From Protonemura montana (taxonomy: Eukaryota > Arthropoda > Insecta > Plecoptera > Nemouridae), in assembly GCA_947568835.1 (NCBI GenBank), contig OX387604.1:12367076-12431075 (forward strand): a stretch of 64,000 nt of DNA, read 5' to 3'. Of this stretch, positions 17,573 to 61,379 are shown piece by piece. The stretch's first letter is position 1. Each line of letters opens with the position of its first letter. A program made the translations under genes and the position numbers. The notes beneath the pieces were generated by a model. It saw nothing but the letters and a program-made list of their open reading frames with translations. It did not search any database and was not told the origin of the DNA.

Positions 17573-20500
17573 ATAAAGGCACCGTATAGACTTTAACTCG
17601 AACCTTAAGTTTATGAATTTTATATGTCGCCGAGCTCACCAGTAACCCTGTGTTGATTATAGTTGCTTCTTTTCTCATTAAGTTATGACATTAAAGAGTT
17701 ACGCCCTGCTCTATATGACAAATCCGATACGTATTGGATGATCTCGGGACGACGACCTGTCACGGTGCTTGCTCTAGGTATGTTTCCCGGTTAACCTCTA
17801 ATTGTACAATTCTTGTATAAACTATGCTCTCTCAAAATGCAGAAAATATTTCCTCAGATATTTGCGTGTATTAACGATGAGAAATATAATTTAGCGTTAT
17901 TAAGTATGTTTAATTAAATATATTAAAACCGCATGGTATGCTGCTACCTGCTACCTACTCCTTACAAATTCAGTGTATAAAGCACCTAAAAATGTTCAAG
18001 CAGAACATATATATATATTTTTAATTGTGTTTACATTGGAATATTCTTTGGTCATTGTTGCTCTTCACAACTAGGTATTTCATTTATCATTGCATAGAAT
18101 TTGAGTGTTCCAACTGTGCATCCACGGCTTGTCCTTATAAGGATTTGTGTGTGGGCAAGTATGACATCTCTGGTATGACTTATGTAGTTCAGTGAGACCT
18201 TAATGTAAGACTGACTACACGAGCATTTGTGTTTAATACAGAGGTAGATATTATTTTGGAAACGCAATTAATAATAAATTATAAATATATCTTGCTTGAA
18301 CCGCTTGGACCCATTTAAAAAATTGATAAGCCGTTGTGATTTAGTATGGGAAAATGTGACAGACGTTTGGTATTGCGATAGCTAAAGGAGGTTATTTGGA
18401 TGATATTAATTTATCTGTGCATCATTTCTAGAAACATACTCAAAAATCAAATCTACTTCGCCAACTATCTGCCTTTTATTTTCCTACTGAACAACAAAAA
18501 GTACCATGCAATGTTTATTTTTCACACAACACAATATAAGCTAATTACTGACAGGTTCGATGATATTTACAGAGACAGACTGTTATCAAGCCCAAAAAGT
18601 CTGTTGTGCCTATTAAGCCACCGTTACACAGAAAGAGCATTCGCTGCAAACGAAGTGGCAGAACTTCTCATATCTTTGGTACCATCTTATCCTACAGAGA
18701 AGAAATGATGGCGTTAGTATTTGACCCCTACGAAACTGTAAGATTTATAATTATTTTCAGAATTAATAGAAACAATGTCAAGGTTTCAAAGCAGCACTTT
18801 TACTGTTTGTTTTTCTTGCTTTGTGTTGTAGGTAGAAAATTCAAAAACGATTGTATGTCGTCCTCCTGGTTTGGTCTACGATATGAAGATGGCAGAGTAC
18901 GATTGTCCATGGGATAAAACTTATCCCGAAGGGCCAGCACGTTATGTGAGCGTATTCAACCGGTATGAAAATGTACCTAATCTAAGTAGCAGATACTATA
19001 TGCTTTTAAAATTGCAGTCTGCATACTAATATATAATATTTTAGTTATTAATTATTATTAACACCTTTATCATTTACTATTTATATTCCACCACATTTTA
19101 CATTATTTTCAAATATTTTTTACTTGATTTTTTCTACACTACAGCCCCTGGCTGTAATTTTTTTGTACTAAACTTGTTCTGTTCGTAAATCATCTTGCAC
19201 AGTTGGTAAAAACTTATGTGTGGCAATTTGGACAATATTTATCAATTTAAATTTCTTTATAAAGTTATTTTGGACTACTTCTTGCAAAACGTCAAATCCG
19301 CTGAGTTCCTAACGTTTCAACATGATTTTTGCTTTCTAAAACAAAACCGTACTTACAAGATTTCGATCGTGCTGCAACATGCAGCATTCAAATTGGCTTC
19401 AAGAAATCCACAAAATGTACAGTTTTTCCCATATCACTTCTCGACAGGCTAAAATAAACGTTAACTTGTCCTTTAAAGTGCTTTCATTAATTGGGACGCC
19501 CATTGTGTAAGGGAATCATTGTGATGTAATTGCATTCCATCGACAGATTTCTTATCCAGGACCAATTTCTTTTCACGTTCACCCTATAAGGATCGAGTGT
19601 ATGTGCAACTATCAGTTTTTTTCTGTTCCAATCTTTTTTTCACTCTTTCTCCCTAAGCATCCATTGCTTGCTTGCTTGAGCTTCTATGAAGAAACACTAG
19701 AGAAACCAAAAATATCTTGCAACATCTTTAAGGTTAATTCTTATTAAATTCTCTATGCTACTGATATTTTGTTTTTCCCTACCATCACAACATGTTGTAT
19801 AGTCAAAGTTTTTATCGTGCTGTTTTTTTGGGAAAAGTCACTAACGTTAATACTTTGTTTAATTTCAAGTCTTGAAGAACTAGGACTTCTCTCAAAAATG
19901 ACACAAATACACTCCAGAAAAGCTTCAGAAGAAGAAATTCTTAAATGCCACGAGCGTGATTCGTTTGTCGCTCTTAAAGAAACAGAGGACTGCATGGACT
20001 TTGAAGATCTAGAAGAAAAGAGCTCAAGATATGATGCGATATATCTTCATCCAGTAAGTACAATTTACAAGTTCTTGTGTGTCTTTCTATGGCAAATTAT
20101 GTTATCTAGAGTTATTATTGAAATTTAAAGCACAATTTTCTTGTAACAATTCGTAATAAGTCATAAGCATTCCCCAAGCTTATACTGTAAAATTTTCACA
20201 GAAAGCGTATGAAGCGGCACTATTAGCTGCTGGTAGTACAATTGAGCTTGTGGACCAGATCTGCAACGATAAGCTAGGAAGCGGCTTCGCTTTAGTCCGT
20301 CCACCAGGGCACCACGCTATGCGAAATGAGTTCTGTGGCTATTGTTATTTTAATAACGCTGCGTTAGCTGCCCAGCACGCCTTGGACAAATACGATGTCA
20401 AAAAAATTTTAATAGTCGATTGGGATGTACACCATGGCCAGGCAACACAACAAATGTTTTACGATGATAATCGAGTACTCTATTTCTCTATACATCGTTA

Positions 20501-23500
20501 TGAACATGGCACATTCTGGCCTAACCTACGAGAGTCTGATTTTGACCATGTTGGAGAGGGTGTTGGAGCTGGCTATAATGTCAATGTTCCTCTGAACAAA
20601 ACTGGAATGACAAATACTGATTACATGGCAATCTTTCATAGTCTTCTTTTGCCATTAGCATCTGAGGTAAGATTTATGATATTCTGCTTTAAATCAGATA
20701 AAACTCTAGTGAGATGACGAGTTGTTTGGGTCATACCTCTATTTGCTTGGTCTGCCTTTAAATCAGATTATGCTGAGTTGTGTCTATTGTGACTGCTCTA
20801 GTTGTGGTTTTCTGATTCCGTCCTGAAATTATTTCACTTTTTGACACTACGCCCAAACTTTTCCCCTGCTTTTTCGGTCCATGTAGAGTCTGAATGGGCT
20901 GCTAGTGCAATAAAAAGCTATTTAAAAATTACATGTTTAACAATATTTTACTATTTTTTTTTATGAAATATATGCATCAAATTTGAGCTTCTTTTTGAAT
21001 TTTTTACTAATTACTTACCAAATTGATAACTTTGGCCCCCACCCCAATTTGTTGAATGTAGACTTTCACCTACTGCTTTTCTGTGGACAAAGGCTCTTTG
21101 GGCTGAAAAGGAAAGTAGCGTGGTAGAAACCCATTTTGGCCAGCAAGTAATGTCTAACTGTGGACCGCTGGCTAACAATACATTTTATGTTCATCATAGT
21201 CTTGCACAAGGACTTACTAATGGTATTGGTGACTTTCATTTGCTTCTATAATAATAATTATAATGAAATAAGTATGTGGTTGGTTAATCCTTGACATGAA
21301 GAATGCTGGTTGAGAGACTTGTTGCCTGATATTTGACTTTTACATCTTAAGTAAAAATCCTGGGCTAGGAATGATGACTCTCTTCATTCAATTTTAACCA
21401 GCAGTTAGAATACCTAACTTCAATCTATATGTCAAAGGCTAGCTGACTCCCAAGTGGAAAATGTCAATGATCTAAAGTTATTCATTTGCCTGCTCTAATA
21501 TATTGCTAAGGTCTGCTTTTAGTTGGAATAACTAGTTGAGTGTAGGTGTGTTGTGGCTTGTGTTACTAACTATCACCGCCTATCTCTTTTCCATGCATTC
21601 CAGTACCAGCCAGAGCTGATCATCATATCAGCAGGATTTGACGCTGCAGTAGGCTGCCCAGAGGTTTGCATTTCTTCTGTTTATCACAATATATTTTTTT
21701 ATTTATTAGTTTGCTCCTGAGCTAATTATTGTCTCTGCTGGATTTGATTCTGCTCTTGGAGATGAAAAGGTATGGGTTATTTTTATTAGATGCTATTGAT
21801 GGTTTTTTTTAGATTATTTTATGGAAAATTTGATCTCTATCTTAACTTAAATTGCCATACAAGCTGAATGCATAATGATGCAGTTCAGTTTGGTCAGATC
21901 GGCAACCTTGTGAAGGTAGACAAACTTGTTGGGCATCTTTAGACCAGCTCTCAACAAAGTGGTTAGCAAGGCAATTTTCTTTTACAATCTTAATGCTATT
22001 TATTGTTAATTATAGGAGAACTTTGCAGGTTTCTAGGTCCTGATGTGTGCTCACCTGAATGGTTTTTGTTCCAGGGCGAGATGCTAATTACACCAGCCTG
22101 CTATGCGCACCTGCTCTGGTCTTTAAAAAACCTGGCATACGGCAAACTGGCTGTGGTACTCGAGGTAATTGCGTATTCATTTCTTCCTCTTTTTGACAGT
22201 TACTGACCTTTCCAATTGGGGTCACAAAAGCATGCTACATGGCACCAAGAAAGGTGTTTTAAATATATGGGAATAGTGGACAATTGATTTCATTTTTCAT
22301 CCTGTAACATCACTTTGCCTGAATTGGTTGGTTACCTAACAAATGATTGTTACCTTCAATGATTGTTCAAGGGAAACTTTAATTATTTTATGACACCTAT
22401 GCATATAGTGTACCTACTTTCTTTGAATAGTGGCACAATAACTGGACACATTACACAAATACAATTATTAAGTTCTCCTGATTGGGACACACAACCAGTA
22501 TTTCAACTTTTAACTTTGGAAATAAGTTTTTAGCCGAAAATTATCTTGTATGTGTATTTTGAGCACCCCACACTTTCTGCCCCACCTCATAATGAATGTA
22601 GTCTGATGACGACAACATAACACAAGCACTGGCTTGGCGTAGGCGCCTTTATCTGGAGATTAGATGCTTGATGTCATTAATACAAATCAGTTGCAGTCAA
22701 CGCGCGGTGGGGCAGAAGATGCGGTGCGCTCGAAATAACTACTCATATAAATGTTTTTTGTCTCAAATCTATCTTTCCAAAGCTGAAAAGGAGACAAAAT
22801 TATTGTGAGGCCCTTTTATACAACTTGTCGTGAAGTTCTTTGAGATCATCCATGTTATCTGTAAGTAAGAAACCAATTAAAAAAATTCCCTCTGACTTTT
22901 CCAGGGTGGTTATTGCCTGAAATCGCTGGCAGAGGGTGCAGCCTTGACTGTCCGAGCCTTGATTGGCGAACCTTGCCCGCTCATTGGAGCATTAGGAACG
23001 CCGTGCCCAGAGTAAGGCGCAAATATTGCCACACAATCCCAACTTCCAATCTTAAACCAGAGACTATGTAATTAACCGACACGGTACATTTAGGGTCGTC
23101 GAGACTATAAATGACGTGATCCATGCGCACCAGAGTTATTGGTGGTGCTTCATGAAGCCTAAGAAGGAAAAGAATCGTGTAGAGATGGAGCAACATACTG
23201 CCGAAATAGAACACTGCCCTGTTGTAAAGTACTTACACACTGAGGAAAAGCCGACAAGCTACGCCACACGCAACTGTTACCCAGTGCAGACTAAGGAATT
23301 TCTGTTAAATGTTGACTTGATGCTCGATTCGCTACGCGAAAGTAAGCACGCTTTTAAGACATTAAACCTAAAAGTGATTGATCAGTATTTACGAATATGG
23401 AATTATAAAAGGGAATAGGCTCTTGCTGCCGTTGCTGGCTGGAGTGATCAATGATTTTGTCTATCTACACATTGTCAGCATTACAAAGGCTTTAGCAACA

Positions 23501-26500
23501 ATCTGACAGCTCCAGTTATAAAACTACCAACACACTGTTATTGGCGATGTACACAGCAATATTGTCGAGTCTATTCCTTACGTAACTCGAGAAGTCTTTT
23601 TGGTTACTTTTTCACTTCATATTCATTTCCCTGCATTCTTTATCGTGTCATACAATATTGCCAGGTACTCAGCTGAGCTTCGCTCCCAACAAAGTTTGCT
23701 TTGTTTATGATTCGGATATGATGCTGCATGATCCAGTACAAAATTCCAAGACGAAACATCCTGAGGATCCGCAGCGCATAGCTCATGCGTTCAAGAAGTT
23801 CCATGACTTCAATCTCATTCCTCGCTGCAAGCGTTTGGAGGTAAGATTTTTGTTTGCCTTGAGGAGGGTGATTATATGTAACATTCTTGCCCTGGAAAAT
23901 AAATAAAATTGGTGTTCTTTTACTGAGGCCAACATTGAAGGTTTTATTAAAATTGTGACATTTTGTTATCTTCCCCCTACGCAATGAATTAATACATGTC
24001 AATCCAACCAGTCCTGTGACAACTACTGTCAAAAAAGCAATTTGTGTTAATTTAAGAATATTAATCCTGGATTTTTTTTCCTTTTTGATGGAATGGTAAG
24101 ATGCTTCACAGGGGATCTTAAATATTTTCTCAAAAATCCAGAGTTTACTAGATTATGAAGTTTGCCAAAAGGCTGGATTTGAGTTTGGGGAAAAAGAAGG
24201 TTATATGACGTAACGGAAGTTACGAAACTTACAGTGAAAAAATACATGGTAGGCCTCAAGTGTTATGATAAGTTGATATGATATGATGATCTTCTTTTCA
24301 TTTGCAGCTTATGTCTTCCTGCTGCATCCTAGACAGACTTACAAAAAAAAAGGATATGGGGCAAGTATCTCTAACACTGTTTTTTGTGTTTTTAGTCACG
24401 GATCATTACGAAAACAGAATTGGAGATGGTCCATGAAGAAGGATACCTCAAGCTTTTAAAGGATGTGTCCGAAAGTACGCCCGAAAAGCAGCGAGAGGTA
24501 GAGCGTGATTACAATAGCGTAACGTTCTGTAGACATTCGTTTGACAGTGCGTGCCTTGCTGCTGGGTGCCTATTACAGGTTTGTAGTAATTCAGCCTACT
24601 TACATACAAGATGTTAGAGTCTTCATTCTGAATGCCCATCACACATACCAATTTTATTGTGATTTCTGATGTCAAAACGCACCTTCAAACACCGTTCCCC
24701 TAGGATCTACTTTAATCAAATTTGGACGCTGGGCGTCAACTGAAAATAGCCTTTAATCTGAAAACCAGGTGTTCATTGCTAAGTGAAGTTACTCTTAATT
24801 GTCGATTGTTTTAAAAAATACCATTCGCAACAGAACAGCTTTGTAAGGAAGCAACGGACAAGAAAATATCGATCAGGCCTGAGCTACCTGAATGCATCTA
24901 GTTTGATTTAAAAAATTAGAAAATTTATCTGCTTAACTGTTTATGAAATGCTTAACTTTACAGAACATTGGAATAGACCCATGGGCCTCAAGAATATTTA
25001 ACAGCTAGCCTATTGAGCATCACCTTATTGCAGTGAATTGATGTCAGAGAAATTTCTATTTTAATAATAAGAATTTCTTTTTGTTCATTGAACAAATATA
25101 TTTTTATAGAATTGGTCATCATAATATTAATTTATTATTTTTCTTGAATAATAAAAATTTGCGAATTTTCCAACATTTCATCAACATCAATATTTCACAA
25201 TCTAAATTATTACAACAATTTCCTAAGAGTCCCGTTACCATTTCAGAGCTCGGAATTTTGTGCTCATGGTAGCTACAAGTCCAAAACATGATGAACTCTG
25301 TGAACATAATGTGATTATATAGGTCGTAATGGTAATTTTGTTGCAGGTTGTCGATGAAGTAATGACAGGACAAAGTCAGTCGGGTGTTGCAATCATTCGA
25401 CCGCCAGGCCATCATGCTTATCCCGACACACCGCATGGTTTTTGCCTCCTGAATAATGTGGCTATTGCAGCTAAATATGCCCAGAACAAATTTAATTTGA
25501 AGAGAATCCTCATTCTCGGTACTCTTTTTAATTAAGTATCATTGAAATTTGTACCTACTTCCATTGTTGTACAGAAATCTACCTTCCATCACAGACTTAA
25601 TGAAATTCTAGTCTTTTAACGTTGCTCACCAATAGCAATCGAATAATTTAAATTGAAAAATTCCTCTACTCATATTTCATTCAATGTGGATTGAATTATT
25701 TCTACGCTTTGTTTAGACTGGGACGTACATCATGGCAATGGTACTCAAGACATATTTTATGATAACCCCAATGTGCTATACATATCGTTGCACGTATACG
25801 CCGAGAAAAAATTCTTCCCGTATCTTGAATGCTCGTCGGCTTCGTTTGTGGGAACTGGCAATGGGAAAGGATTCAATGTCAACATACCCTGGAATCAAGT
25901 AAGACTAATCTATATGGTTGGCCATTTTTTATAATTTATTTCACTATTTTCAATGCTTTTCTAAATTTTGCGTATTTCCTTTCAGTTTGGGGTCGAGAAC
26001 ACAGACTACCTTGCCGCTTTTTATGCAGTAGTGATGCCAATTGCCTATCAATTTGATCCGGAACTTGTGATTGTCTCAGCTGGCTTCGATGCTGCTGTAA
26101 ACGACAACATTGGGATGTGCAAAGTCACACCAGAAGCTTATGGCCATATGACACATTATGTATCTGCACTGGCAAATGGAAAAGTGGTACTTGCATTGGA
26201 AGGGGGTTATAACAAGGAGTCACTAGCCACCTCTCTTGCCAGCTGTACAAAAACGCTGCTCGGTGATCCAGTTCCTTTCATGGATACGGTTTGCAAGGGA
26301 ACAAGAGAAGCAAAGACTATCAAACATGTTGTAGAAATCCAGAGGAAATATTGGTCATGCTTACAACTGAAAACAACAGTAGCAGACCTTGCAAAAATTC
26401 CGGACTCTTCAGACATTGGTCTCGTTCCTGTGTCGCCAGTAGGGGAAAATCCCCCAACGCCGCCCGATTTCAGAGAGATTGTCAGCTCCTTGTCTACACT

Positions 26501-29500
26501 TGACACGGATGATACAAGCCAAGAGCAAACCTGCTCGACTGATGTGTCGGTTGCTGGAGAGCTTCAGGAAAACAGTACTTCTCCTTGCAGCTCAACTCAT
26601 GTACAGTTTCAGGTACCAACTCTTGATCTTCATTTCAGTGGTGTTTTTTTTGGTTTGGTGGTTCTTGATTGGTGTAATAATTTTAATTATCTTCATAGAA
26701 GTAATTGTCATTTAGTTTAACAAAGTCCTGTTAACAAAATAACTGCCAGCTAATAATTATCTCCATGGTCACTGCTAGTCAGATACTACCATTTTCATCT
26801 GATTGATTCATCTGAATCATATGATTGATTAGTGGGTTTGAACGACGCACTGTTTTGATAACAGGCCCTTTTTCATCTTGACCTGCAGTTGCTTACTTAA
26901 CTGGACATTGTAAAACTGGCCCTTAAACTCTCAAACACTTTCAGGAACAAACGCTTGGTCTCATTTGGGTGGTGTCTTAGTTGGTTTGGCACCTGTGATT
27001 TTCTTATAAGTGTGAATAATAACAAAATACTCTGCCTGTTGCAAACACTCACAATGGAAATCGGAACTTTACGACATAAACGTATCAAATTCAAACTAGA
27101 GTTACTCGAGTTTAAATGAATGTGACATAGTAAAGCGTCACTAGAATGAGTTTGACTGTGGGTATTCAAAGCCTCGTGTTATTTCTCCTTGGAGATCCAC
27201 CATTCTTACCAAAAGCACTTAAATCTTCTGAAAAAGGCTATGTTCAATTTGCTTAATTGGTTAGGTTGCGATGGGGGTTCGAGTCCCTGGTTGGACACTC
27301 ATTTTTGAGAGGTTATTAGTGTTCATAATAACAAAATACTCTTCCCATTTCAAGCATTTGCAATTTAAATCAGATCTCACAACTTTGATTATCATTTCAG
27401 GCATTATCGTTACTTTGCGACCTGGATAAATTTGTAGAAAAATATCCTGCAGGCAAAAAGGATTTTTCCCTGGAAAAGCTGGAGGCTGCGCATGCTGCAT
27501 GTTTGGAGGAACCTTTGCCAGCAAAAATGGTTATTAACAGTAACAAATTTTTTCTTCCTAATTTCTGTCAATACACTTTTCTTGCTTTCATAACACTTTT
27601 CCTTATTATTTTACATTACTTTGGGCATCGATTTTCGATATTGTTCAAAATAATAAAATACTCTGTCCATTACAAGCATTTCCAATTTTAATCAGATTTT
27701 ACAACTTTGATTATCATTTCAGGCATTATCGTTCAGCTGCGATGTAAGTGCGTTTGTTGAACGATATCCTGCAGGCCAAAAGGAGTTTTCCCTGGAAAAG
27801 CTGGAAGCTGTGCATGCTGCCTATTTGGAGAACCCTATGTCACCAGCAATGGTTATTAACAGTAACAACTGTTTTCTTCCTAATATCTGTCTATCCACTT
27901 TCTTCTCTTGAATACTCTTTTTTTATTTGTTTCTCTGGTACTCCCTGGTGCTTACTCTTGGTAAGCTGAGCTTTTTGTGTATTTGTTTTCATTATTCCTT
28001 GCATCTTTATTATTTGTAGAGTCTCCTCCCCCCTCTTATATGTACTCTATATATTATAAATCCTGTTTAAAATTTCATTGGAAAATTGATTTGCTAGCAT
28101 GAATGTTTCAATCGTGTACTTTCAAATTTTTACTTGTTCTTCTATTTTTGTTGTACTACTGGACAGGTATTCTAAATAATTTAACAATCTTGTAAAATAT
28201 TACAGGGTCGGCCTTGTGGCGTGGGTGACGTAGTAAATATGTCTGACGAGGGTAACGGCGCAAGCTGCACAACCTTAATATGCAACCAGATCTGTACCTG
28301 GCGATGTGTGAATTGTTGTCTGGTGAGTCTCCAATCCACCTTGATTTTATGCCAAGCATTGATACACTATTTTCATCTAGACAGATGCCATAATTAAGTC
28401 TGCTCTCCTATCACAACACTGAAAATGTGTTCAAGACCAACGATGGCAAACCAAGAGTCATCTATTTCTAGTTACAAGGGGAAGAGGAAAGTAGAGAAGC
28501 TTAGGAACTTAACCGAGATGAGATGAGATGGTGGTTACTGCAATATTTAAAATGTTTTGTCACTAGAAGATTGGGAGAGGTCTCTACCAGTAACAAAGGC
28601 AATAGCCAAAGCGTTAACAAAATCCTTTAACTCTACCACCATCCCTTTGCTTCTCTTGGTAAGTTATGCAACTACTTCACTTTCTTCTCCTTCTTACCTG
28701 TATCCAAGGTCTTTTGGCACATCAACACACCCATGATGTAGCCAGGATTTCAGGCTTAAGGGGACACAAAATTAATTATAGGCACTGCAATTTTATAGAC
28801 GATACAGTACTGTGCAGACTATACAGTGGAACGAGACGCATAATTTCATGTGATGAGGAGAAATGACACTTGTGTTTTTTTTCTCATACTGAAATCAAAA
28901 GAGAGGTGCACATGGAAGCCCCTAATCCCTTTCCTAGATAAACCACTACAACACACTAGTTCTGTTAGATGCTTCCTCCACCAACTCAGAACCAACTTGC
29001 CAATCAAGAAGCATTTCAATTTCCTTATTTTCCACAAAACAACACAATGTGCTTATTGGAAAGTCCTCAAAACTAAAACTACTTACATATAATAATCCAT
29101 GAGGTACAAAGTCAAGTTACAATTTAGCAGGCATCTTAAGCCATGCACATTGCACATGTGATCTGGGAGTCGGTTTCTTGAAAACTATTTTGCAACCTCA
29201 GCTTGCTTCAGAACATTAAATGACCCCCTGGCTAAAGAGATGCTTGCTATGAAACTTGGAGTGACACAGCCAGTCATGCTGGATTGTGGTTTTTACAGTA
29301 GATTGATTTATACTGTTTCCTCTGTAGCATGCCAAAATAACATTAGCAAAACATCATCTGGGAGGCAGTCGTCCTGAAACATAGTCCCCTAAAACTCAAA
29401 AACTCTTTCAGAACCCAAAATATATTCTGGCCACTTTCAGCTAAAATTATGCTTTGGGCCCAAAAAATTATCCATTTCAATTTTTTAGCGTTAGCACTGA

Positions 29501-30697: not shown

Positions 30698-32881
30698 CTA
30701 TACTGCATGAAATACTGGGTTCTTTTTGCCCTGCTTCATTTTTACCTGAATAATAGTCAGACCAAATTGTCTTGTTAAATTTGAAACATAGTTTAAATAT
30801 GAGCCCAAAATACTTCGACTCCCGCAGCTTGCTCCCGAATTTTCTTCTGAACAAATGCTGTGAAACGTTAGCCGTGGTAATGCTTCTGTTGATATATGTG
30901 GATAAAAGGTCTTAGTAACGACATACGAATAACTTGAATTTCGTACTAAATCCATGAAACTATCACTTAGCGATGTTGGAATAGCTAGATAGAGCCGATA
31001 GCTCATTTTTATTGCTTGCATTTTCTTTTCACACAAAATTAATAACGATTCTGTCTGTAACTGCACATCATCTAATTTAGCAGAACCCATTTCATAAGAA
31101 AAAAATTCTTTCGCTAGCATGTATCTTTGGCCTGTTCGTTTGTTGATCCTAGGACGTTTGGTATTTTTGAGCTGAAGTAAACTTATTGGCAGTGAGTACG
31201 TGGAACAAGTTACAATATGAATGGCTGTGAATCTTGGCTTCGATTGAATTTCATTTGATAAATGCTCGGTTAGGGGATACACACCTCCCTGGTGTAAAAA
31301 CCCATAAAACAATGTAAGAAGCATATTAAGCACGTACCAAATTAACAGTAGGTAATTGAATTGCCCTTTGTTTTTAGAAATAGGTTTGCAATCACCTTTT
31401 GGTTGCTCTGTTAAGTCGGTAACATGTTTGATTTTTTGAGCATGTAAAAATATTAGGGGTAGCGTGACAGGAATAAGAAAGCGAGGTTCTTGGTGGGGGA
31501 AAATTGACAGTGCTGCTACTGGAATTATAAAAGATGTGGTCATCAAGCCACCAATGCTTTGAAGGCGGGGTAACTCGCTAAATTTTCCTTTTATGCCTCT
31601 GTATATTATTTGTACAAAAGCGTACACCCCGACTATTGCCAACACGTTATAAAGTAAAGATAGATTAACAGCAAAGTGAAGAAAGCGTGGGTGAAGTCCA
31701 TGTTTTGCTAAATTTGCAGTATCGAAATTGTACTTGAAGAAATTAAGTGGAGCTACCACAAAATTATTTAAATTTATTTTGAATGAATATATTTCATGAA
31801 TGGTTAAGTAGCCATAGTAGAATGAATCAATCAATATGAAGAGAAGAGCCATAGGTATTCCAGAAAGTATAAATGCCGCAATGCGTATATGGAAATGCCC
31901 CATGCCAACTGTCTTTGAGCCAAGACCTCGTTGGAGCCAGAAAAATACAGGAGGGAACGCAAACGCTAGAAATGTGGGTCTATTAAAGATACCAGCCACA
32001 GTTAGAAAGGCAATTGATGCACACCGGCTAAATGAATGGTTGGGTAGAGCATTGCGTAACTTAAAAATCTTTACTTTTTCCACCGGATTATCGGCAGCTT
32101 GGTATTTGTAGAACAAATATTCATCCTGGTAAATAACCTGAGAAAAAAATGTATTAATTAAATACAGAGTTATTAACACCATGTGATTAATTTGAGAAAG
32201 TGTGAATTTGATTGAGGCTTACCTGGTCAGTTCGCTTCATACAATCGGCAACAAAATATAAAAGAATAGACATTAAGACCATTTCTGTAGTGTTCGAAAA
32301 TGTCCTGGTGGCATAGACTAATATAACATATGAACTGGCAAACATTAACAGTCTTGACCTGTAACTTTGTCCATAGGCATAACATATTTTATATAAACTG
32401 TAGTCACACACAAATGAAAGCAGACAGCTAACTAGCCGTGGCAGAACAAGCAATATGTACGGTGTAACGATGTTAATTTCAAACCACAAATTCATCAAAG
32501 GGGCTAGAGTCTTTAAGAGCGCCAGCGGAAGGCCAACCATCAGGTAAGGAAAAGCAATGCTCCGAACGGGAAAAGTCGCATTGAATTCCCATGGTCTTGA
32601 AGTCTCTATGTCAAATATATCCCCTGAAAATAAAAATCAACGTGGCAAACATGTGTAATACGTACAATGGGTGACTTATCCAGAATAGCTGACATACCTG
32701 TTACCACTTCAAGAGATTGAAAGAATTCGTCTGGATGAATGTAACCAGACTGAGGCATCAAAGTAAGGATAATGCGAAGACCTGCAAGAAGCCAGTACGA
32801 AAATAAATTTACATCACTTTTTAGAATAGTGGGTCTACTTGGCTCGTTTATAGGCTCATTATGGCGAGTGTGGCCTGTCAT
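30698..32881 (-). CDS. PIGZ: GPI mannosyltransferase 4 (PIG-Z/Smp3 family)
   Basis: ER-membrane GT-C glycosyltransferase that adds the fourth, side-branching mannose to GPI precursors from dolichol-phosphate mannose. Three exons, 32881-32698, 32623-32223 and 32137-30698, agree in phase; 674 residues, longer than human PIGZ (about 579). Family signatures: GYIHPDEFFQSLEV near the N-terminus, with the lumenal catalytic Asp/Glu pair of GT-C enzymes; SRPWEFNATFPVRSI; YATRTFSNTTEM; and the HQEPRFLIPV motif typical of PIG-B/M/Z. Many hydrophobic segments run throughout. The frame stays open upstream of 32881 to about 33028 without an ATG; I chose ATG 32881 because the family starts shortly before GYIHPDEF. 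The extended C-terminal half after about residue 470 is poorly conserved. Confidence 0.9.
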
Positions 32882-52042: not shown

Positions 52043-55000
52043 GCCGTGCTGGAGGGTGACACAACCGAACCGGGAGAGTCCGGGACTCCCACGGGATCTC
52101 TGCACCCTCCATCCAGTCCGGACATGGACGATGCGAGCAGCAAACGACAGGCGACCAGGTAACAGTCTTGCCCTTGCACTTTAATTCACTCCTTACCATT
52201 TCACGTCGGCCTACACGATCCTCTTGCGAAAAACTACCGGTCTCAATTCTCATTTCAATCTTATACTGCTCGAATGATCTTTACAAACTTGGTAAACATA
52301 TTATTTTATTACGATTTGTTCGCTTGTCGGGTCTCTCATTTCGTAGTTTATTTTGTTGTTTATTTTGTGTTTTCCCTTTTCTTTTGTTTCTCGTATTTCT
52401 TATCTTCTGTTATTAAAGGTATTGCGCTCACCCAGTTCAAATTAAAATGTTTGTTGGCTTCAGCTCCACTTCTGAATTCTGATGGCTCCCTCTAATTTCT
52501 GTCGCTCTTTCTCTCTCGTCTGTTAAGTACATAGTACGTCATGTTATATTTTTGAATCCACGGTGGAAATCTTGTTTTACCGGCAGATAAACCGTGAATA
52601 TTGTCTAAATTGAGGTTAATTAAACAATGCATCCAGTAAAAGTTCAGAAAGTTATAAAAACTCTCAATTCGAAGAGTAAACTACGATCATAAATTATGTT
52701 ATAACTAAGTATAATCAAAGGAAAAAGACTAAAGATGATTTAAAAAACGCATTTTTTAAGCAATAATAGTTACGTCATTGCTTTTGAGGCATCGGAGCAC
52801 ATTGAAAAACTTGTAATTTATGACGTAATTTGTGACAAGAGAGCTTGATTTCTGAGATGCTATTTCCACTCAGATTCTCGCAAGGGTTGTTTGCTTTTTA
52901 ACCACTAACCAGGCATTGTAAATAAACCTTCTATAACTTTTAGCCCCATAGTTGAACTAGAATCAGCCACTCTGGAAGACTGGCTATGCACTTTCCGCGT
53001 CTCCGAACCAATCAATATTGATACTAATGTGATCAGACGACAAGTGACGAGGTTACTTATATTCTCCGTCTAAGGCACGTCACGTGCTCCCAAATGAGAT
53101 TGCTCTGAAGAAAATAATTTTACGATGTCTTTCGGAAACTCAGAAGTTCCGCTGTTCTGTGATCGCCGCGCACTGTTTCCTCCCTGGACATGACATGTGA
53201 TTCACTCGCGAAGATAGCGCGTAATTGATTTAGTAAATACACATCAGCTATAGAGCCAAGGTATGATTTTCGTAAAGGTGGTAATTGTTCTTCTTGTTTC
53301 GTCTGGTGTAGGTTAACCCGCAAATTCGAACATGTGGAAATATTATCTCTATTTATAACTTGTTTAGATGAATACGTATACGTGCTAGTTTTGAAACGGT
53401 GGTCGCGAGCGCTGTACGAGATTTAAGAGATGCATTTTTTCTGTCCTTCTCAATTCAAAGGTACTAATTATGTCTCGCACAGCGCAAATATGTTGACAAT
53501 TTTGGAGAAATTTGGCTTGTCATTATAAACCAATCTTCATGGTCTCTCTATTAGGAGACAATTTTCAATGACGACGAAACCGGCAGTTTCAAAGCAATGT
53601 GACGTAGTCAACCTTTAGTGCCATCAGGGTGCAGAATATGATATTTTATTCATAACGTAATAATGCGAAAGCTAGGGGTCTCTCTGAAGCATGATTTTCC
53701 ATTCATAATGCCTCTCTATACCTCGATATTGAATCGTTAGTGTTGCCATATAGAAAATTAGATTTTAAGGGACAGGCTGTGACGTGATAGGATCAAACTC
53801 CCACAAAGTCAGTTTCTACCCAACCACCCAGTTCGCCCTTGCATGCCCTTTTGGTAAGGATAAACTGACCATCATCTTCTATGCTCTTGCCTTACAAATT
53901 TGCGCAACAGTTAAGTAAATTATAGTGGCAGCCAGTACAAACTTTATTTTAAACCGTCTTTGGGTGGCTTAAGTCACTGGCGGTTGCATCTAATATACCC
54001 TATAGTAGTGATTGAAAACAACGTGAACCCATTTTTTATATGCAGTACACATTGAAACTGGAAAAGTATTAACCACTTCTCTTAACAAACATGACTGACG
54101 ACTTGATTAATATTTATATGATCTTTTTTCAACAGGGTATTCAAGAAAAGTTCTCCAAATGGGAAGGTAAATAATTGATGGTTGACTTTCCTTCATAAAT
54201 CAACAAATCAGTATACAGACTTTGTAATATCTCATGACAAATACTTTTAGCACCAGTGAGATTCTCAAGAAATAGCACATTCATTTTTTCTTAGTTATCT
54301 AGATTCACCTTTGTTATTTGAGACTGAGGCTCTTCAAAGTTGGCCATTGAAAATATATTGCAATTAACTTCCTGTTAACAACCTGCAGGGAAAAAAAGCT
54401 CTGGCATTTCATAATTGAAGTTTGATGAGGCTCTATTTGGTTCTGGAATTGCGAGTTTTTTCGATATTCATAACAGCAAGTAATTGCATATTAAATTTTG
54501 TAAGGTATTTTTTTTTCTGTTATAAGTTGTAACCTACCTTGCAGGTGCTCGCTGGCATTTAGAAAACTTGTTAAATATGTATCTTTTTGTATTTCAGATA
54601 ACAGTTTACTTGGGTAAAAGAGATTTTGTTGATCACATATCTCATGTAGATCCAATAGGTGAGTAATTCCATCAACTTTGGTGCTACTATTGCATTATTA
54701 TTATATAATTGGTAGAATTTCTGAAAACATCCCACTAGTCAGAATATTTGTCATTCTTACTTGACAGCCCTTTACTATAACACGATGAAACATACAGTAT
54801 AAATAACAGATTTTTGGATTGTATGATGTAAAATATGGCTGTACTTCAAATCCCTGTAAGTACCTGGATTTAGGATGTGTCTCTACTCATGGGTCTACAT
54901 CCAGATAAAACCGCCCGTTTAAGAAATACAACTTACATATTTATATCTCCGTAGAGTTGGTTTATTAAGAGTTGTTTGTTTATTTACATTTTTTCTTGAT

Positions 55001-58000
55001 TTTTATTCAGATGGGGTAGTCCTAATTGACCCTGACTATGTGAAGGAACGGAAAGTATTTGGTCACGTTTTGGCTGCTTTTCGATACGGCCGGGAAGATC
55101 TGGACGTTCTAGGACTTACGTTTCGAAAAGATTTGTACTTGGCAGCTGAGCAAATCTTCCCTCAGGATGCAGTGGCACCGCCAACAAAGAAACCCATAAC
55201 ACGATTGCAGGTTTGTTCATCACTTTTATGACTGGCAAATTTAGTTTATTTTCCTCTCTTGATTGGGAAATGTAGATACTGAACGTTAGCTGAACATAGC
55301 TATATAGGTGTGTAGTCTTGTATACCCATACTTGTTATTTATTTCCCCTGTTCTCAAAAGATGTGTCTAAAATCTGAATACAGCATATAGATCCAACTTC
55401 TGGAACTGCAATTCTATTATGGCAGACTGCTGGTTGAATCAAAGCTCTGGTTAAGACATATATTTTGCACTTGATTGTAGTTTGATTAGCCACAAGAATA
55501 AGTGTGTAGGTAGCATAACTGTTAAGGCTCTAAAATATCTAGGTTGTTACTTGGTAGTAATTTAGACATTCCTGTCGTACATTTCATGGAGGGGGGTCCA
55601 ATCAAGCCTCGGTTGTTTTGTGTGTGTAGCTTTAAACAAATGTGGGTAGCCAGCGAAGAAATTCTTCAATGAGAAAATGTAACAATTTAATATTAAAAAA
55701 TGTATTGAAATCATACACAAGCTACCAGGAAATTTTGGAACAGTTTTGGATTTGAAGCAAATGTTGAACCAGTAATTGTGTTAGCTAGCTCTGTATTTTT
55801 TTGACACTACACTATGTTGATAAGGTAATTAGCGGGTCTGTTTGTTAGAAAAATGTATCTGTGCCTGTATCACTACATGAAATCAGAAGTAAACTAATCC
55901 ATTAGATAAGATTTTTTACAAGTCATTGTAGAGGAAATTGTTTATTTCGATGTCTTGCAGTTTTTGAAGTCGTAAAAAAAGATTACACTTAAGCACTTCA
56001 TCACAAATGCAGATTATAGAAGAGCAAATCCAGTTATAGTAATGCTATGTATTCTTCTGGACTAGGAACGACTGATCAAGAAACTTGGGCCAAACGCGTA
56101 CCCATTTTACTTCGAGCTGCCCCCGCACTGTCCAGCGTCCGTCACTCTACAGCCCGCACCAGGTGACACAGGAAAACCGTGCGGTGTCGACTACGAGCTT
56201 AAAGCATTCGTAGGCGAAACGCAAGATGACAAACCGCACAAACGGTGAGTACCTGACTGTTGCCTGATGGACTCACTGTAAGCACTGAGGTTTGCTGTTA
56301 GTGGGTACTATCGTGTTAATGTAAGGGATCTTATATGTAATTAAACTATTTTCTCAGTATTTCCATTCTATTGCTCTACCCTTGAAAACACTGAACTGAC
56401 TAACGTCACTGAAGTCTTGACTGGAACCTACTGGCTGCTAGAACTTAAAAATTAGTTAAGGGTGAATTTAAAATTCTATGTATTGCTAGGAATATTTTAT
56501 GGACCAATTTGCTCTAGCATCACTAAGAGAATAGCAGGGTACTTTCAATCTTGCTTTAGACCTTAAACAACTTATAATGTTTTTGCCTGAAATTGAATTC
56601 TTGTCTGTATCTCCAATTAGTAATTTGTGATTTTTCACATTGGAAACAGGAACTCTGTCCGATTGGCGATACGTAAAATCATGTACGCACCGAGTAAGCA
56701 GGGTGAACAACCGTCAGTTGAAGTTAGCAAAGAGTTCATGATGAGTCCAAACAAGCTACATCTCGAAGCATCCCTGGATAAAGAGGTGCGTTTTCTTGGC
56801 AAATTCATTCATTCAACTATTTTCTTTCACTATATTTGCACTCACTTTTCCACTCAACATAATCTAAAGTGGATAATTTCCAATCAACTAAATAATCATT
56901 TCCTAATTGACTAATTGCATTTAATTAATTTCTAATCACAACCCAGACCTGAACGAATATTAACACTGAATGCTGCAATCAGTATACAATTATTGAGGTT
57001 ACCTCGCTCGATCTACATACCAGAGAAAATGATTGTCGTATGATGTTAATTCCAGCTCTATCACCATGGGGAGAACATAGCTGTGAATGTACACATAGCA
57101 AACAACTCCAACCGTACAGTAAAGAAGATCAAGGTTTCGGTTCGTCAGTTTGCTGACATCTGCCTCTTCTCAACCGCCCAATACAAATGCACAGTAGCAG
57201 AAGCAGAGAGCGAGTAAGTATCTGTGTTCAACCACTCTTCAACATTTGGTCATAAACATTGAGTACTGGAATGCAGAAATACATTTTCAATTAGTGTAAT
57301 TGCTCAACTTGGTGGCATTCCAAAAATATTTAACGTAAGACTACTAGCGGATTACCGCTCAAGTATGAGTCATGTGCCTGTAAATAGTATTTAACTGTAT
57401 TTCAAACTGGTTTTTCTTTGTTCGTGTGTGTGGAGCAAAGTTATACATTCATGTTTTACCGTAAACCACGAGTTCCTTATTAGCAACTTGCAGTGGTCGT
57501 AAGCTGCGAATCTAATGCCAATATGTTCCGATATTAGTTATCAACCTGTTGTCTGCCAGCAACCTGTGAGCTCCGAGTTGACTACTGAACACTAATAAAT
57601 ACTTACCTTCTAGAGACGGCATGGCACCAACAGAACATAGCGCGTCAACGAAGAAATTGAGATCCCTTTCCATGATAATTTCTTGTTTGCTCCCTGATTT
57701 TAATTAGAGGGTTAATTTTAATTCTGTTATTCTGTGATATTCTGGCACAGTGTGGGGTGCCCAGTAGCTCCCGGCTTCACTATGTCCAAGGTGTATGCAG
57801 TACGACCTCTTTTAGATAATAACAAAGATAAACGAGGACTTGCGCTTGATGGCCAATTGAAACACGAAGACACAAACCTGGCATCGTCGACAATGTGAGT
57901 GAGAGTCGAGCCGAGGGGATTGCTCGGAAGGCAGCAAGGTTTCATAAGGCAGGGACTGTCGGCTGCCATATTGGTGGTGGTACATTCTTGAGTATTTGGG

Positions 58001-61000
58001 ATGATATTTTGGGTGACTGTTCTCGTTGTTAGATACATTTTTATTTGCTCGATGACATTGGATTGTTTTGTTTTTTAATTTGGTTTGTTGTTCAAGTTGT
58101 TTTAATTAATATTTGCTGTGGTGGGTTTACTAAGCGCACCTCCACCAACATCTCACACCTTTCTAACTCGGGTTTAGTCTTTGGTTTTTCATCGAGCGGC
58201 TATCGAAGTGTGGCTCCCGGCATATCATCCCATTACCAAGTGCACCCTCTCTCCCCGGGATATAACCTGTATGCAATGACTGTTATGGCCTGGCCTTTCT
58301 GTTTAGATCTTTGTCATTCCTTTGTCTGTGTTTTGATTATTGTACGTTGTTGTTGGGTTGTGAAGAGAGGGTTGTCCGATCGGGCCTGGGTTCACGCTGA
58401 GCAAAGTGTTCATGATGACTCCACTTCTGGCCAATAACAAAGACAAGTGGGGCCTAGCATTAGACGGGCAATTGAAACATGAGGACACGAATCTTGCATC
58501 CAGTACTTTGTAAGTTGACAACAAATGGCTGCCTGTTCGCGCTATCTGGCTGGCTGATTTATTAGTTTCAATAGTTCTGTTTTTTGTTGCATCGCATCGA
58601 AATGAGTGTCTCGCTGAACGTTACCCACGGCTCACGACACAGTTTTGGCTTGGTTTCCGAAGATAGAATTGAAGAGCAACACATTTATTAGCTACCGTGG
58701 CAGTTTGTACTTTTCGCACCTCATGTTTCGGCATCAACTCACGACACTTTATGGCTTTCGAACAAAAATTTTTAAGTCGTCTGATTTTAACTGCCTTTGC
58801 CTAATTAAAGATGGTGTTGACAAGCAGCTGCATGTGATGGTGCATTCATGCACTTTGTTTTTGCTGCTGTTTAAGTTGGAATGAAGACCAGGCCTGCTAA
58901 ACCGATCCCAAATCACTTGTGACAAGCTTTATGTGTTGCATCCCACATCACTTTTGTATACTTTCTTGTTTATGTCAGCTTTGCTTGTGATGTTGTGTTC
59001 TGAAATTTGATGCACCCAGCATGTTTTCAAGATGAAAAAATGTGATTAAAAATATCAATGTGTGTTCTTTCCCAAAGTTAAAAAATAAATTTAACATGCT
59101 TTTTTTAACCATTGATTGCAGAGCTATGAGATTAAGAGAAGTTGTCGAGGGTTGCAAAGAGTGTTGGTGGCAGCCCTGGTGTGTTTTCTTCATTGTGAAT
59201 AATTATGTTTCTAGTGCATGTTTCGAAGGGATTTTGAGTACCTAGCTTGCTTTGCTTGTGCATGCTTTTGCATTACTGTTAAGAAATATGCATGAATCAG
59301 TTTAGTTTGCACAACATACACTTCTGCGGGATACCTTATTTCCCGAGACCTTTTGTTTCGGGTGAATGATGATAGAGTGCTGATTCTCTTGCTACCCTAC
59401 GGTTAGCTTATTTATATAAACAAACTCATAAGTACGTCCAAGGCTAGAATAAAACCTTTTCAATATAAATGGTTTTTTGCAAGCTGATTTTTTTTCAAAC
59501 TCTTCTCAAGTAAAGTAAACATACTTATTCAAATAGTTTTCTTTTAAAAAACCCACAATATCTCAAAATTTGGTTGTACGAAAGCCATTTTATTTGTTTC
59601 AAACGATTCGTCGTTATTGCTGATTAAATTATATAGGTTAGCAAATCAAGGACCATGTTAAAAAGTATTTAATACTTTACAATCTTAACAATCTCTTTCT
59701 TTATGTTTCTTAGAGTGGCCGATCCAGCACAGAGGGAAAATCTAGGAATAATTGTTCAATACAAAGTTAAAGTCAAACTTTGTCTGGGTGCTTTGGGAGG
59801 GTAAGTTACCACCATATATTCTGTGATGTGTTTTACGGTATTGCTCTATGTGAAGGAGGTTTGCGGCCCTAAAAAGGGCCCTAAATCTCGACGTTTTGAC
59901 GAGGCACGGCTCGTCATTTTTAATAGATTTCAGGATAATTCTCCTGAAGATGATGAGCCGTGCCTCATCAAAATGTAGAGATTTAAGGTCCTTTTTAGGG
60001 CCGCAAACCTCCACACAGAGCAACACAGTGAAACACATCCCAACATCATACCGCAGCTCAGAAAACAACAACACAACCATCATATATTTGTTGAAGATAA
60101 TATTTAGATTATAGGTAATGGTGTAGGTAATGACTTTTATTAGTTAGTTATTATTAAAGTAAGAAAAAAAAAATCCAATGTCCAAATGTTTTTCTAGCTG
60201 AAATGTTTTTTTTTTTTTAACATTTGGTGTTTTATAAAAGTCAACCCGTCAATCATTGAACCATAAAATAGCGTAGAAATCTTTTAATATCACATTTTAA
60301 ATCTTAAAGTTGTTAAGCTAAACCTATGATGGTACGTTTCTAGTGTTCTTGTGTCAACTGAAATTGTTCCTTGCATTTTCAGAGACTTGGTGGCAGAATT
60401 ACCGTTCATTCTAATGCATCCGAAACCAGAGGAGGAAATACTTCCTCCGACAGCGAGGCCCTCTCCCATGCACACCGCCAATGAGTCGGGTTCGGGAGAC
60501 CACGTTCCAGTAGATACCAATCTCATTCAACTAGATAGGTAAGTTCCATTTCATTTTTTTGAAAAATCAGACATACAGTCATAATTATTACATTTAGTCC
60601 TTAGCAGGGTCAACTTACGAATGCATACTTGTCAACTACATTGCATCAATCGCAGTCATACTGACCAATTCATAGATATTAATTATTCAATACCACGATT
60701 TCTTCATCACTATGAAAATATTTTTAATTGAAACTCGTTTAGTTCTTCTTCAAATCCTGCATTGGCTGCTAGTTCTATGCCAATTCCTCCGCATAATGTT
60801 GCTATTTTGCAACGCTGTATTTCTAATCTACATCCAGCCAAAAATCTCAAAACATACAATTTAATGTAAATCTTAACATATTTAATTTGTGTCGCAGAAG
60901 TAGTGCCCTTTAGAAAAATCAAATCCTTCATTTATGTCACGATAAAACAGAGAAATAGGTTCACCAATCGAGATTTAAGAGAAAACAAATTGTTTCTATT

Positions 61001-61379
61001 TCCCAAACTAAAAAACATTCAGAAACATCAAAATAATTATACTGGTTTTTAGACACATATCTACTTTATCTAACGTTAGCACTAGTTTTGACAGAAACTA
61101 ATTAAACTGGGTTTTGAATACTAAGTGAATAAGCAATTCAAAATAATACAATAAAATGTAATAAAATGTAATCTATAATATAATAATAATATAATACAAA
61201 ACAATTCACTAACGATTCAAAACCCAGTTCAAATAGTTTATGTCAAAATAAGTTAAATTTTTTTCCATTAATTTTTTTGCGTTTCTAGCGATGGCATTGT
61301 ATGCCCCGATAACGACGACGACATCATTTTTGAAGATTTTGCGCGCCTTCGGTTGAAAGGCGGAGAGACAGACGCTTGA
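52043..61379 (+). CDS. krz: Beta-arrestin (non-visual arrestin, kurtz-like)
   Basis: Cytosolic adaptor that binds phosphorylated GPCRs, ends G-protein signalling and links receptors to clathrin and AP2. Exons: 52043-52158 (ATG 52124), 54136-54166, 54598-54658, 55011-55210, 56066-56244, 56650-56785, 57056-57213, then 57751-57894 or 58366-58509, 59714-59800, 60383-60538, 61289-61379; 425 residues. The arrestin fold is unmistakable: [48 protein letters not shown] (finger-loop side), [18 protein letters not shown], the gate/lariat loop [16 protein letters not shown] with the polar-core Asp, and VDTNLIQLD (clathrin box LIQLD). The C-tail [12 protein letters not shown] carries the AP2-binding F and two R residues. 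The first exon is also open upstream of ATG 52124, even to an unspliced ATG at 51998, so a longer Pro/Ser-rich N-terminus is possible. Confidence 0.95.
57751..57894 (+). CDS. krz: Beta-arrestin alternative exon 8a (144 nt)
   Basis: Begins and ends in phase 2; CACAG acceptor, GTGAGT donor. It encodes [20 protein letters not shown], then [20 protein letters not shown] and TNLASST, with the last codon completed as Ile by the exon at 59714. It covers a C-domain strand plus the gate loop that holds the polar-core Asp and the phosphate-sensing Lys. Confidence 0.92.
58197..58268 (+). CDS. krz: Possible third alternative exon 8c of beta-arrestin (72 nt)
   Basis: Between 8a and 8b, a pyrimidine-rich tract and AG at 58196, then 72 nt (half of 144), and a CT|GTATGC donor. 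Both ends are phase 2, so it could replace 8a/8b in frame. It encodes [20 protein letters not shown] followed by GYN, resembling the start of the 8a segment (VAPG, then a V-x-P-L pattern with one gap). It lacks the gate loop. It may be a chance frame or a degenerate copy. Confidence 0.3.
58366..58509 (+). CDS. krz: Beta-arrestin alternative exon 8b (144 nt)
   Basis: Same length and phase as 8a; acceptor TGTGAAG at 58365, donor GTAAGT. It encodes [20 protein letters not shown], then [19 protein letters not shown] and TNLASST. It is identical to 8a over the gate loop but differs in the preceding strand and has KDKW instead of KDKR. The acceptor tract is purine-interrupted, so 8b may be the regulated choice. 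Confidence 0.88.
59825..60039. mobile_element. Foldback element (long inverted repeat) in beta-arrestin intron
   Basis: Left arm 59825-59917 and right arm 59950-60039 are inverted copies at roughly 85-90% identity by eye, sharing blocks such as aggtttgcggccctaaaaa and gaggcacggctc. A 32-bp spacer separates them and itself contains tcagga/tcctga. No clear target-site duplication. It would form a strong hairpin in DNA and pre-mRNA between exons 9 and 10. Confidence 0.85.

Follow-up and report, generated by a model that had tools for sequence, protein, structure and literature searches.

Does one beta-arrestin gene of the plecopteran insect Protonemura montana encode two arrestins that differ by a single exchangeable exon? 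The question was raised by a 64,000-nucleotide (nt) stretch of its genome (assembly GCA_947568835.1, contig OX387604.1, positions 12,367,076 to 12,431,075, forward strand), here called the window, which lies at 12.37-12.43 Mb on a 29.6-Mb contig in a genome of 258 Mb and 34 contigs. A gene whose coding exons run on the plus strand from 54136 to 61379 of the window contains two similar neighbouring exons, 8a and 8b. We propose that this one gene would give two proteins, in which either 8a or 8b, the products of an old tandem duplication, would stand between the constant exons 7 and 9. The explanation as a whole, two isoforms by way of 8a and 8b, appears probable to us; exclusive splicing, tissue regulation and a functional effect are the parts of it that we infer.

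Two homologous exons in a beta-arrestin gene

An earlier sequence-only reading of the window had described 8a and 8b as exons of equal length and phase. Its coordinates, its lengths of 144 nt for each copy, the phase 2-2 and the peptides it quoted were all right; both exons have GT-AG borders, and the junction positions it named (57213, 57751, 57894, 58366, 58509, and 59714) are real donors and acceptors. Its view that they encode alternative forms of the same arrestin segment also stood, as they are homologous and each is in frame between exons 7 and 9, and the gate loop is identical in both copies as it had claimed: residues 286-304, which contain it, show no differences. The reading frame was kept with 8a, with 8b, with both and with neither, and the join of 8a to 8b contains no stop.

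The copies, whose starts are 615 nt apart, have a DNA identity of 63% and specify the same residue at 37 of 49 codons, counting the split codons, with the identical codon used at just 11 of those 37. When the 14-kb gene region was searched by tblastn, 8a matched the position of 8b with an E value of 9e-24, and the next match of either copy beyond the pair had E 0.12 or worse. In the entire window the two queries matched just the pair at E up to 0.5. With its DNA as the query, 8a had a single match in the genome at E up to 0.001. No third exon copy and no relics of one were found in the flanking introns, the gene region or the window.

The identity of the host gene was clear at the level of domains, as both the 8a isoform and the 8b isoform matched Pfam Arrestin_N and Arrestin_C above the cut-offs. 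The closest solved structure in a comparison with the PDB, for which the 8b form served as query, was beta-arrestin-1 (E 1e-164). In the tail, LIQLD pairs in the alignment with LIELD of beta-arrestin-1, and the tail stretch of the last exon pairs with DIVFEDFARQRLKG; we take the former to be a motif of the clathrin-box type and the latter to be of the AP2-binding type. These features point to a beta-arrestin, putatively of the kurtz type.

Selection on both copies and their age

Substitutions between the copies were concentrated at third codon positions, which differed in 34 of 49 codons compared with 11 at first and 8 at second positions (Fisher p 5e-9), and at shared residues with fourfold sites the third base differed in 16 of 20. 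The estimate of dN (nonsynonymous divergence) was 0.20 by NG86 and 0.16 by maximum likelihood; dS, its synonymous counterpart, was undefined or saturated. Because residues were kept even though fourfold sites and dS are saturated, we concluded that both copies have long been under purifying selection. We also simulated the decay of a copy freed from selection, with retention of 37 of 49 residues and no stop as the mark of a pass. At 0.3 substitutions per site, 1 and 5 of 2000 runs passed, and none of 2000 did at either 0.6 or 1.0. Long neutrality of either copy is unlikely; had one of them fallen out of use recently, this test would not show it.

The two exons are identical at 34 of 44 residues, and relative to vertebrate beta-arrestins 8a is identical at 31-32 of 44 and 8b at 29-30 of 44; the best vertebrate beta-arrestin matches were nearly equal, with 58.4 bits for 8a and 56.9 bits for 8b. 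As the copies are thus about as distant from each other as from vertebrate beta-arrestins, either the duplication is old or divergence was fast. The fly kurtz segment is presumably closer to the 8b type.

Residues changed by the proposed exon swap

To place the differences on the protein we used alignments in which position p of 8a is arrestin-2 residue p+256. Twelve of 49 residues differ, at 257, 258, 262, 263, 268, 272, 273, 274, 275, 279, 285, and 305, the numbers 257 and 258 being nominal as they lie upstream of a two-residue alignment gap. The lariat loop spans residues 274-300 under one definition. Within it, K294 and the two aspartates of the polar core, 290 and 297, do not differ between the copies; K294 contacts phosphate, and its role as a sensor is disputed in the available text of the sources (PMC12733242, PMC11173308). 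Non-conservative differences between 8a and 8b include R/W at 285, R/T at 275, and D/A at 279. The first of these is the KDKR/KDKW difference that the sequence-only reading had pointed out; it is real, and falls on a receptor-contact residue. Position 285 is arginine in 8a, as it is in the vertebrate beta-arrestins aligned and in an arrestin paralogue on contig C1 of this genome; 8b, unlike those vertebrate sequences, has tryptophan, and a paralogue on contig C12 has tyrosine.

Each copy would provide the lariat loop, gate loop included, together with the strand that enters it. With aspartates 290 and 297 and K294 shared, both isoforms would be expected to retain the basal lock and to be activated by receptor phosphates. 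What the swap would alter is residues 268-275 of the strand, residue 279 and chiefly residue 285, which would line the central furrow where the receptor places its intracellular loop 2 (ICL2), intracellular loop 1 (ICL1) or helix 8.

Several published complexes bear on this residue. According to the portion of PMC10866553 that was available, R285 is among the ICL2 contacts of beta-arrestin-1 with the beta1-adrenergic receptor and with M2, and among the ICL1 contacts in two neurotensin receptor/beta-arrestin-1 structures; the equivalent residue of mouse arrestin-1 contacts ICL2 of rhodopsin. At the glucagon receptor helix 8 is the partner of R285 in a pi-cation contact, and the R285A change nearly abolished coupling (PMC10447241, available text). 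In bovine arrestin-1 the equivalent residue is R291; its change to Ala (R291A) or Glu (R291E) raised binding to active rhodopsin that was not phosphorylated more than twofold, and R291Q reduced selectivity (PMC12733242). Since residue 285 contacts receptors and R291 changes weaken selectivity for the phosphorylated form, the isoforms are predicted to differ in docking and in the strictness of their requirement for phosphorylation. Loss of the arginine lowered coupling in the glucagon receptor case and raised binding in the rhodopsin case, so that at arthropod receptors the effect could have either sign.

We propose that the 8a form might dock in the manner of vertebrate beta-arrestins, and that the 8b form, with an uncharged aromatic docking residue, might have another receptor preference and a weaker need for phosphorylation. 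The suggestion in the sequence-only reading that the two proteins would differ in receptor or phosphate sensing is plausible, and we would narrow it to docking at residue 285. More tentatively, and with the odds somewhat against it, splicing might toggle residue 285 between Arg and Trp, together with the strand beneath it, and so switch between a phosphorylation-dependent, "vertebrate-like" arrestin and one that is less phosphate-dependent or receptor-biased, a choice for which vertebrates have two genes. Arrestin selectivity is customarily ascribed to receptor phosphorylation codes and to the possession of several arrestin genes. If our proposal were true, the exon swap, in which the gate loop and polar core stay as they are while residue 285 and its supporting strand change, would uncouple "receptor core docking" from "phosphate sensing" within one protein. 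The isoforms would then offer a natural pair with which to study the influence of a single residue on the choice of a beta-arrestin among many receptors, and assays using one cloned beta-arrestin of such an arthropod might cover one of two forms.

How splicing could choose between the copies

That 8a and 8b are mutually exclusive alternative exons is, judging from their arrangement, the likely reading, and the best one, because such a layout usually means mutual exclusivity. In the available text of a survey of the fly X chromosome, neighbouring exons with these features were constitutive or differently spliced in just 6 of 1705 genes, and of 65 internal exons predicted by such features 26 were already annotated as mutually exclusive (PMC3228551). 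The three donors that surround the choice have the weakest U1 pairing among ten donors, with -5.3 kcal/mol for exon 7, -5.2 for 8a and -5.1 for 8b; the other seven range from -6.1 to -10.3 kcal/mol. We would guess, from this one sequence, that 8b requires an activator and that 8a is the default.

Several points weigh against reading 8a and 8b as exclusive and functionally distinct exons. As all four splice combinations are in frame, decay of frame-shifted mRNA could not enforce exclusivity, and the 471-nt intron between the copies is not very short. Pairing between introns, assayed in one genome as complementary runs relative to 100 shuffles, was never above the shuffles, of which 21, 71, and 100 scored at least as high as the real sequence in the three intron pairs; the top run, in which intron 57214-57750 would pair with intron 57895-58365, touches the polypyrimidine region of 8b, and its score was the one reached by 21 of 100 shuffles. 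The 8b acceptor is U/G-rich and has the shortest pyrimidine run of ten acceptors examined (2, the others 4-11), so that 8b is possibly seldom used. At 0.15 substitutions per site, passes in the decay simulation numbered 397 and 438 of 2000, so that neutrality at this level is compatible with what is seen. Scans of viral and prokaryotic contig collections, which contain no arthropod genomes, gave 8 and 88 pattern matches, none of them a relative. With respect to function, the available text of PMC10866553 terms the role of residue 285 at V2R speculative, and the R291 effects come from bovine arrestin-1 with Ala, Glu, and Gln, Trp not being described in the part of PMC12733242 that was available.

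Alternative explanations

The alternative that comes nearest to the proposed one, though we think it unlikely, is that 8a and 8b are real mutually exclusive exons whose isoforms are functionally equal, the pair being kept for neutral or dosage reasons. The identity of the gate loop and of most of the segment at the protein level would fit this; the non-conservative changes at 275, 279 and the receptor-contact residue 285 would not, and the persistence of both copies despite saturated synonymous sites suggests that both forms are needed. The short pyrimidine run before 8b raises instead the idea that one copy, 8b with its poor acceptor or else 8a, is dormant or dying and hardly ever spliced in. 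This we regard as improbable, because both copies are open and have GT-AG borders, their gate loop has stayed identical in protein although fourfold sites are saturated, and the simulations disfavour long neutrality; a loss no older than 0.15 substitutions per site (<=0.15) would go undetected.

It would also be conceivable that 8a and 8b are at least sometimes spliced together to give a doubled lariat segment, since joining them leaves an open frame and the intron between them, at 471 nt, has sufficient length for removal. A protein with both would, however, carry a core strand, the gate loop and each polar-core aspartate twice in a compact C-domain, and the rarity of constitutive neighbours of this kind on the one fly chromosome surveyed (PMC3228551, available text) also speaks against it, so that we consider it very improbable. 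An assembly artefact or a collapsed recent paralogue can be given hardly any weight, being contradicted by the limited DNA identity of the copies, their spacing amid the exons of the same gene, the length of the contig and the single genome match of 8a. We retain two isoforms, with 8a and 8b mutually exclusive, as the probable explanation.

Relation to known systems

Internal mutually exclusive exons of arthropods, such as those of Dscam1, Mhc, and N-cadherin, are likewise homologous neighbours of similar length with the same phase and splice sites, and exchange one structural element (criteria as given in the available text of PMC3228551). The present case differs in that the protein is a cytosolic adaptor of G protein-coupled receptors, in that there is one pair, for which exclusivity is the likely reading of the layout, and in the lack of intron pairing above shuffles. 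With vertebrate arrestin-2 and arrestin-3 the gene product shares Arrestin_N and Arrestin_C, the lariat and gate loops and the tail motifs; vertebrates have two beta-arrestin genes, whereas here variety would arise from one gene by way of one exon. Splicing changes arrestin behaviour in the p44 variant of arrestin-1 (PMC11173308, available text), which is truncated at its C-terminus and does not exchange a lariat-loop exon. In Drosophila, kurtz is described as the only beta-arrestin orthologue (PMC9624432, available text), and a second exon copy was unmentioned among the literature matches listed and in the text available.

Tandem exons used in a mutually exclusive way are well known, and the arrestin pair would be a new case of them. 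Among the literature matches listed there was none on such an exon pair in an arrestin gene; supplements, another fly survey or annotations could contain one. Four papers that deal with exons of the mutually exclusive or duplicated kind (PMC3228551, PMC3303723, PMC5740500, and PMC9741552) leave arrestin unmentioned in their main texts. Genome annotation projects may already list the two isoforms.

Arrestin paralogues in the genome

A query with the full protein gave 26 matches on four contigs, corresponding to the window gene and to paralogues on contigs C1, C12, and C2. The C1 paralogue has a single exon for this segment, which is likewise 144 nt long and of phase 2-2; because of this equal length and phase, the exon unit is old and probably predates the split of these arrestin genes. 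C12 and C2 have one copy of the segment each. A search for duplication of the exon in C1, C12, and C2 found none, and among the four arrestin genes found it is doubled in the window gene only. No intronless mRNA-derived copies were present in the 26 matches, the longest of which spans 141 of 414 query residues.

The C2 gene (contig C2:17684500-17692128, minus strand; L029 1051-923 (-), L020, L022) is a fourth and very divergent arrestin, which escaped a 47-residue segment query and was recovered with the full protein. In an ungapped alignment its lariat segment, KNWIALEDSFSKSAACLASS, has no aspartate at either polar-core position and no lysine at the K294 position, a lysine following one place later. 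A 248-residue open stretch that includes the C-terminal part matched no Pfam family at E 0.001. This arrestin may lack the usual phosphate switch. In the C12 gene (about 6713-7319 of L028) the lariat segment is interrupted after its first 37 residues by an intron that contains repeated pieces resembling 5S rRNA, with one motif at 3 places and a 5S match barely above the cut-off at 7159-7275; a tRNA match lies at 8570-8642 of L028.

Gene structure and other features

The exons of the window gene are given in Table 1.

Table 1. Positions in the window of the beta-arrestin exons and of the intron between 8a and 8b
Feature	Positions	Strand	Remarks
Earliest coding exon identified	54136..54166	+	Start-codon exon lies further upstream
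Coding exon	54598..54658	+	
Coding exon	55011..55210	+	Arrestin N-domain
Coding exon	56066..56244	+	Arrestin N-domain
Coding exon	56650..56785	+	End of N-domain and start of C-domain
Exon 7	57056..57213	+	Shared upstream partner; last two bases belong to a split codon
Exon 8a	57751..57894	+	Lariat-loop segment, R-type (Arg at arrestin-2 R285 equivalent); 144 nt, phase 2-2
Intron separating 8a and 8b	57895..58365	+	471 nt; U/G-rich directly upstream of 8b
Exon 8b	58366..58509	+	Lariat-loop segment, W-type (Trp at residue 285 equivalent); 144 nt, phase 2-2
Exon 9	59714..59800	+	Shared downstream partner
Coding exon	60383..60538	+	End of C-domain and tail with LIQLD
Last coding exon	61289..61379	+	Tail presumably of AP2-binding type, and stop

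In the window, no known RNA family reached its gathering score. A neighbouring gene at 25968-26720 on the plus strand is histone deacetylase-like (Pfam Hist_deacetyl), an open frame at 20250-20717 also appeared deacetylase-like when judged by eye, and a gene at 30698-32182 on the minus strand resembles an Alg9-type mannosyltransferase (Pfam Glyco_transf_22). Bantam and TTAGG repeats are arthropod markers; the genome contains one bantam microRNA match above the family cut-off and 13,014 overlapping matches to TTAGG repeats, the reversed control giving 0. Among the matches listed, TTAGG arrays lie on contig C1 at about 11.6, 14.2, and 16.5 Mb, far from the contig ends, and are thus interstitial repeats of telomere type.

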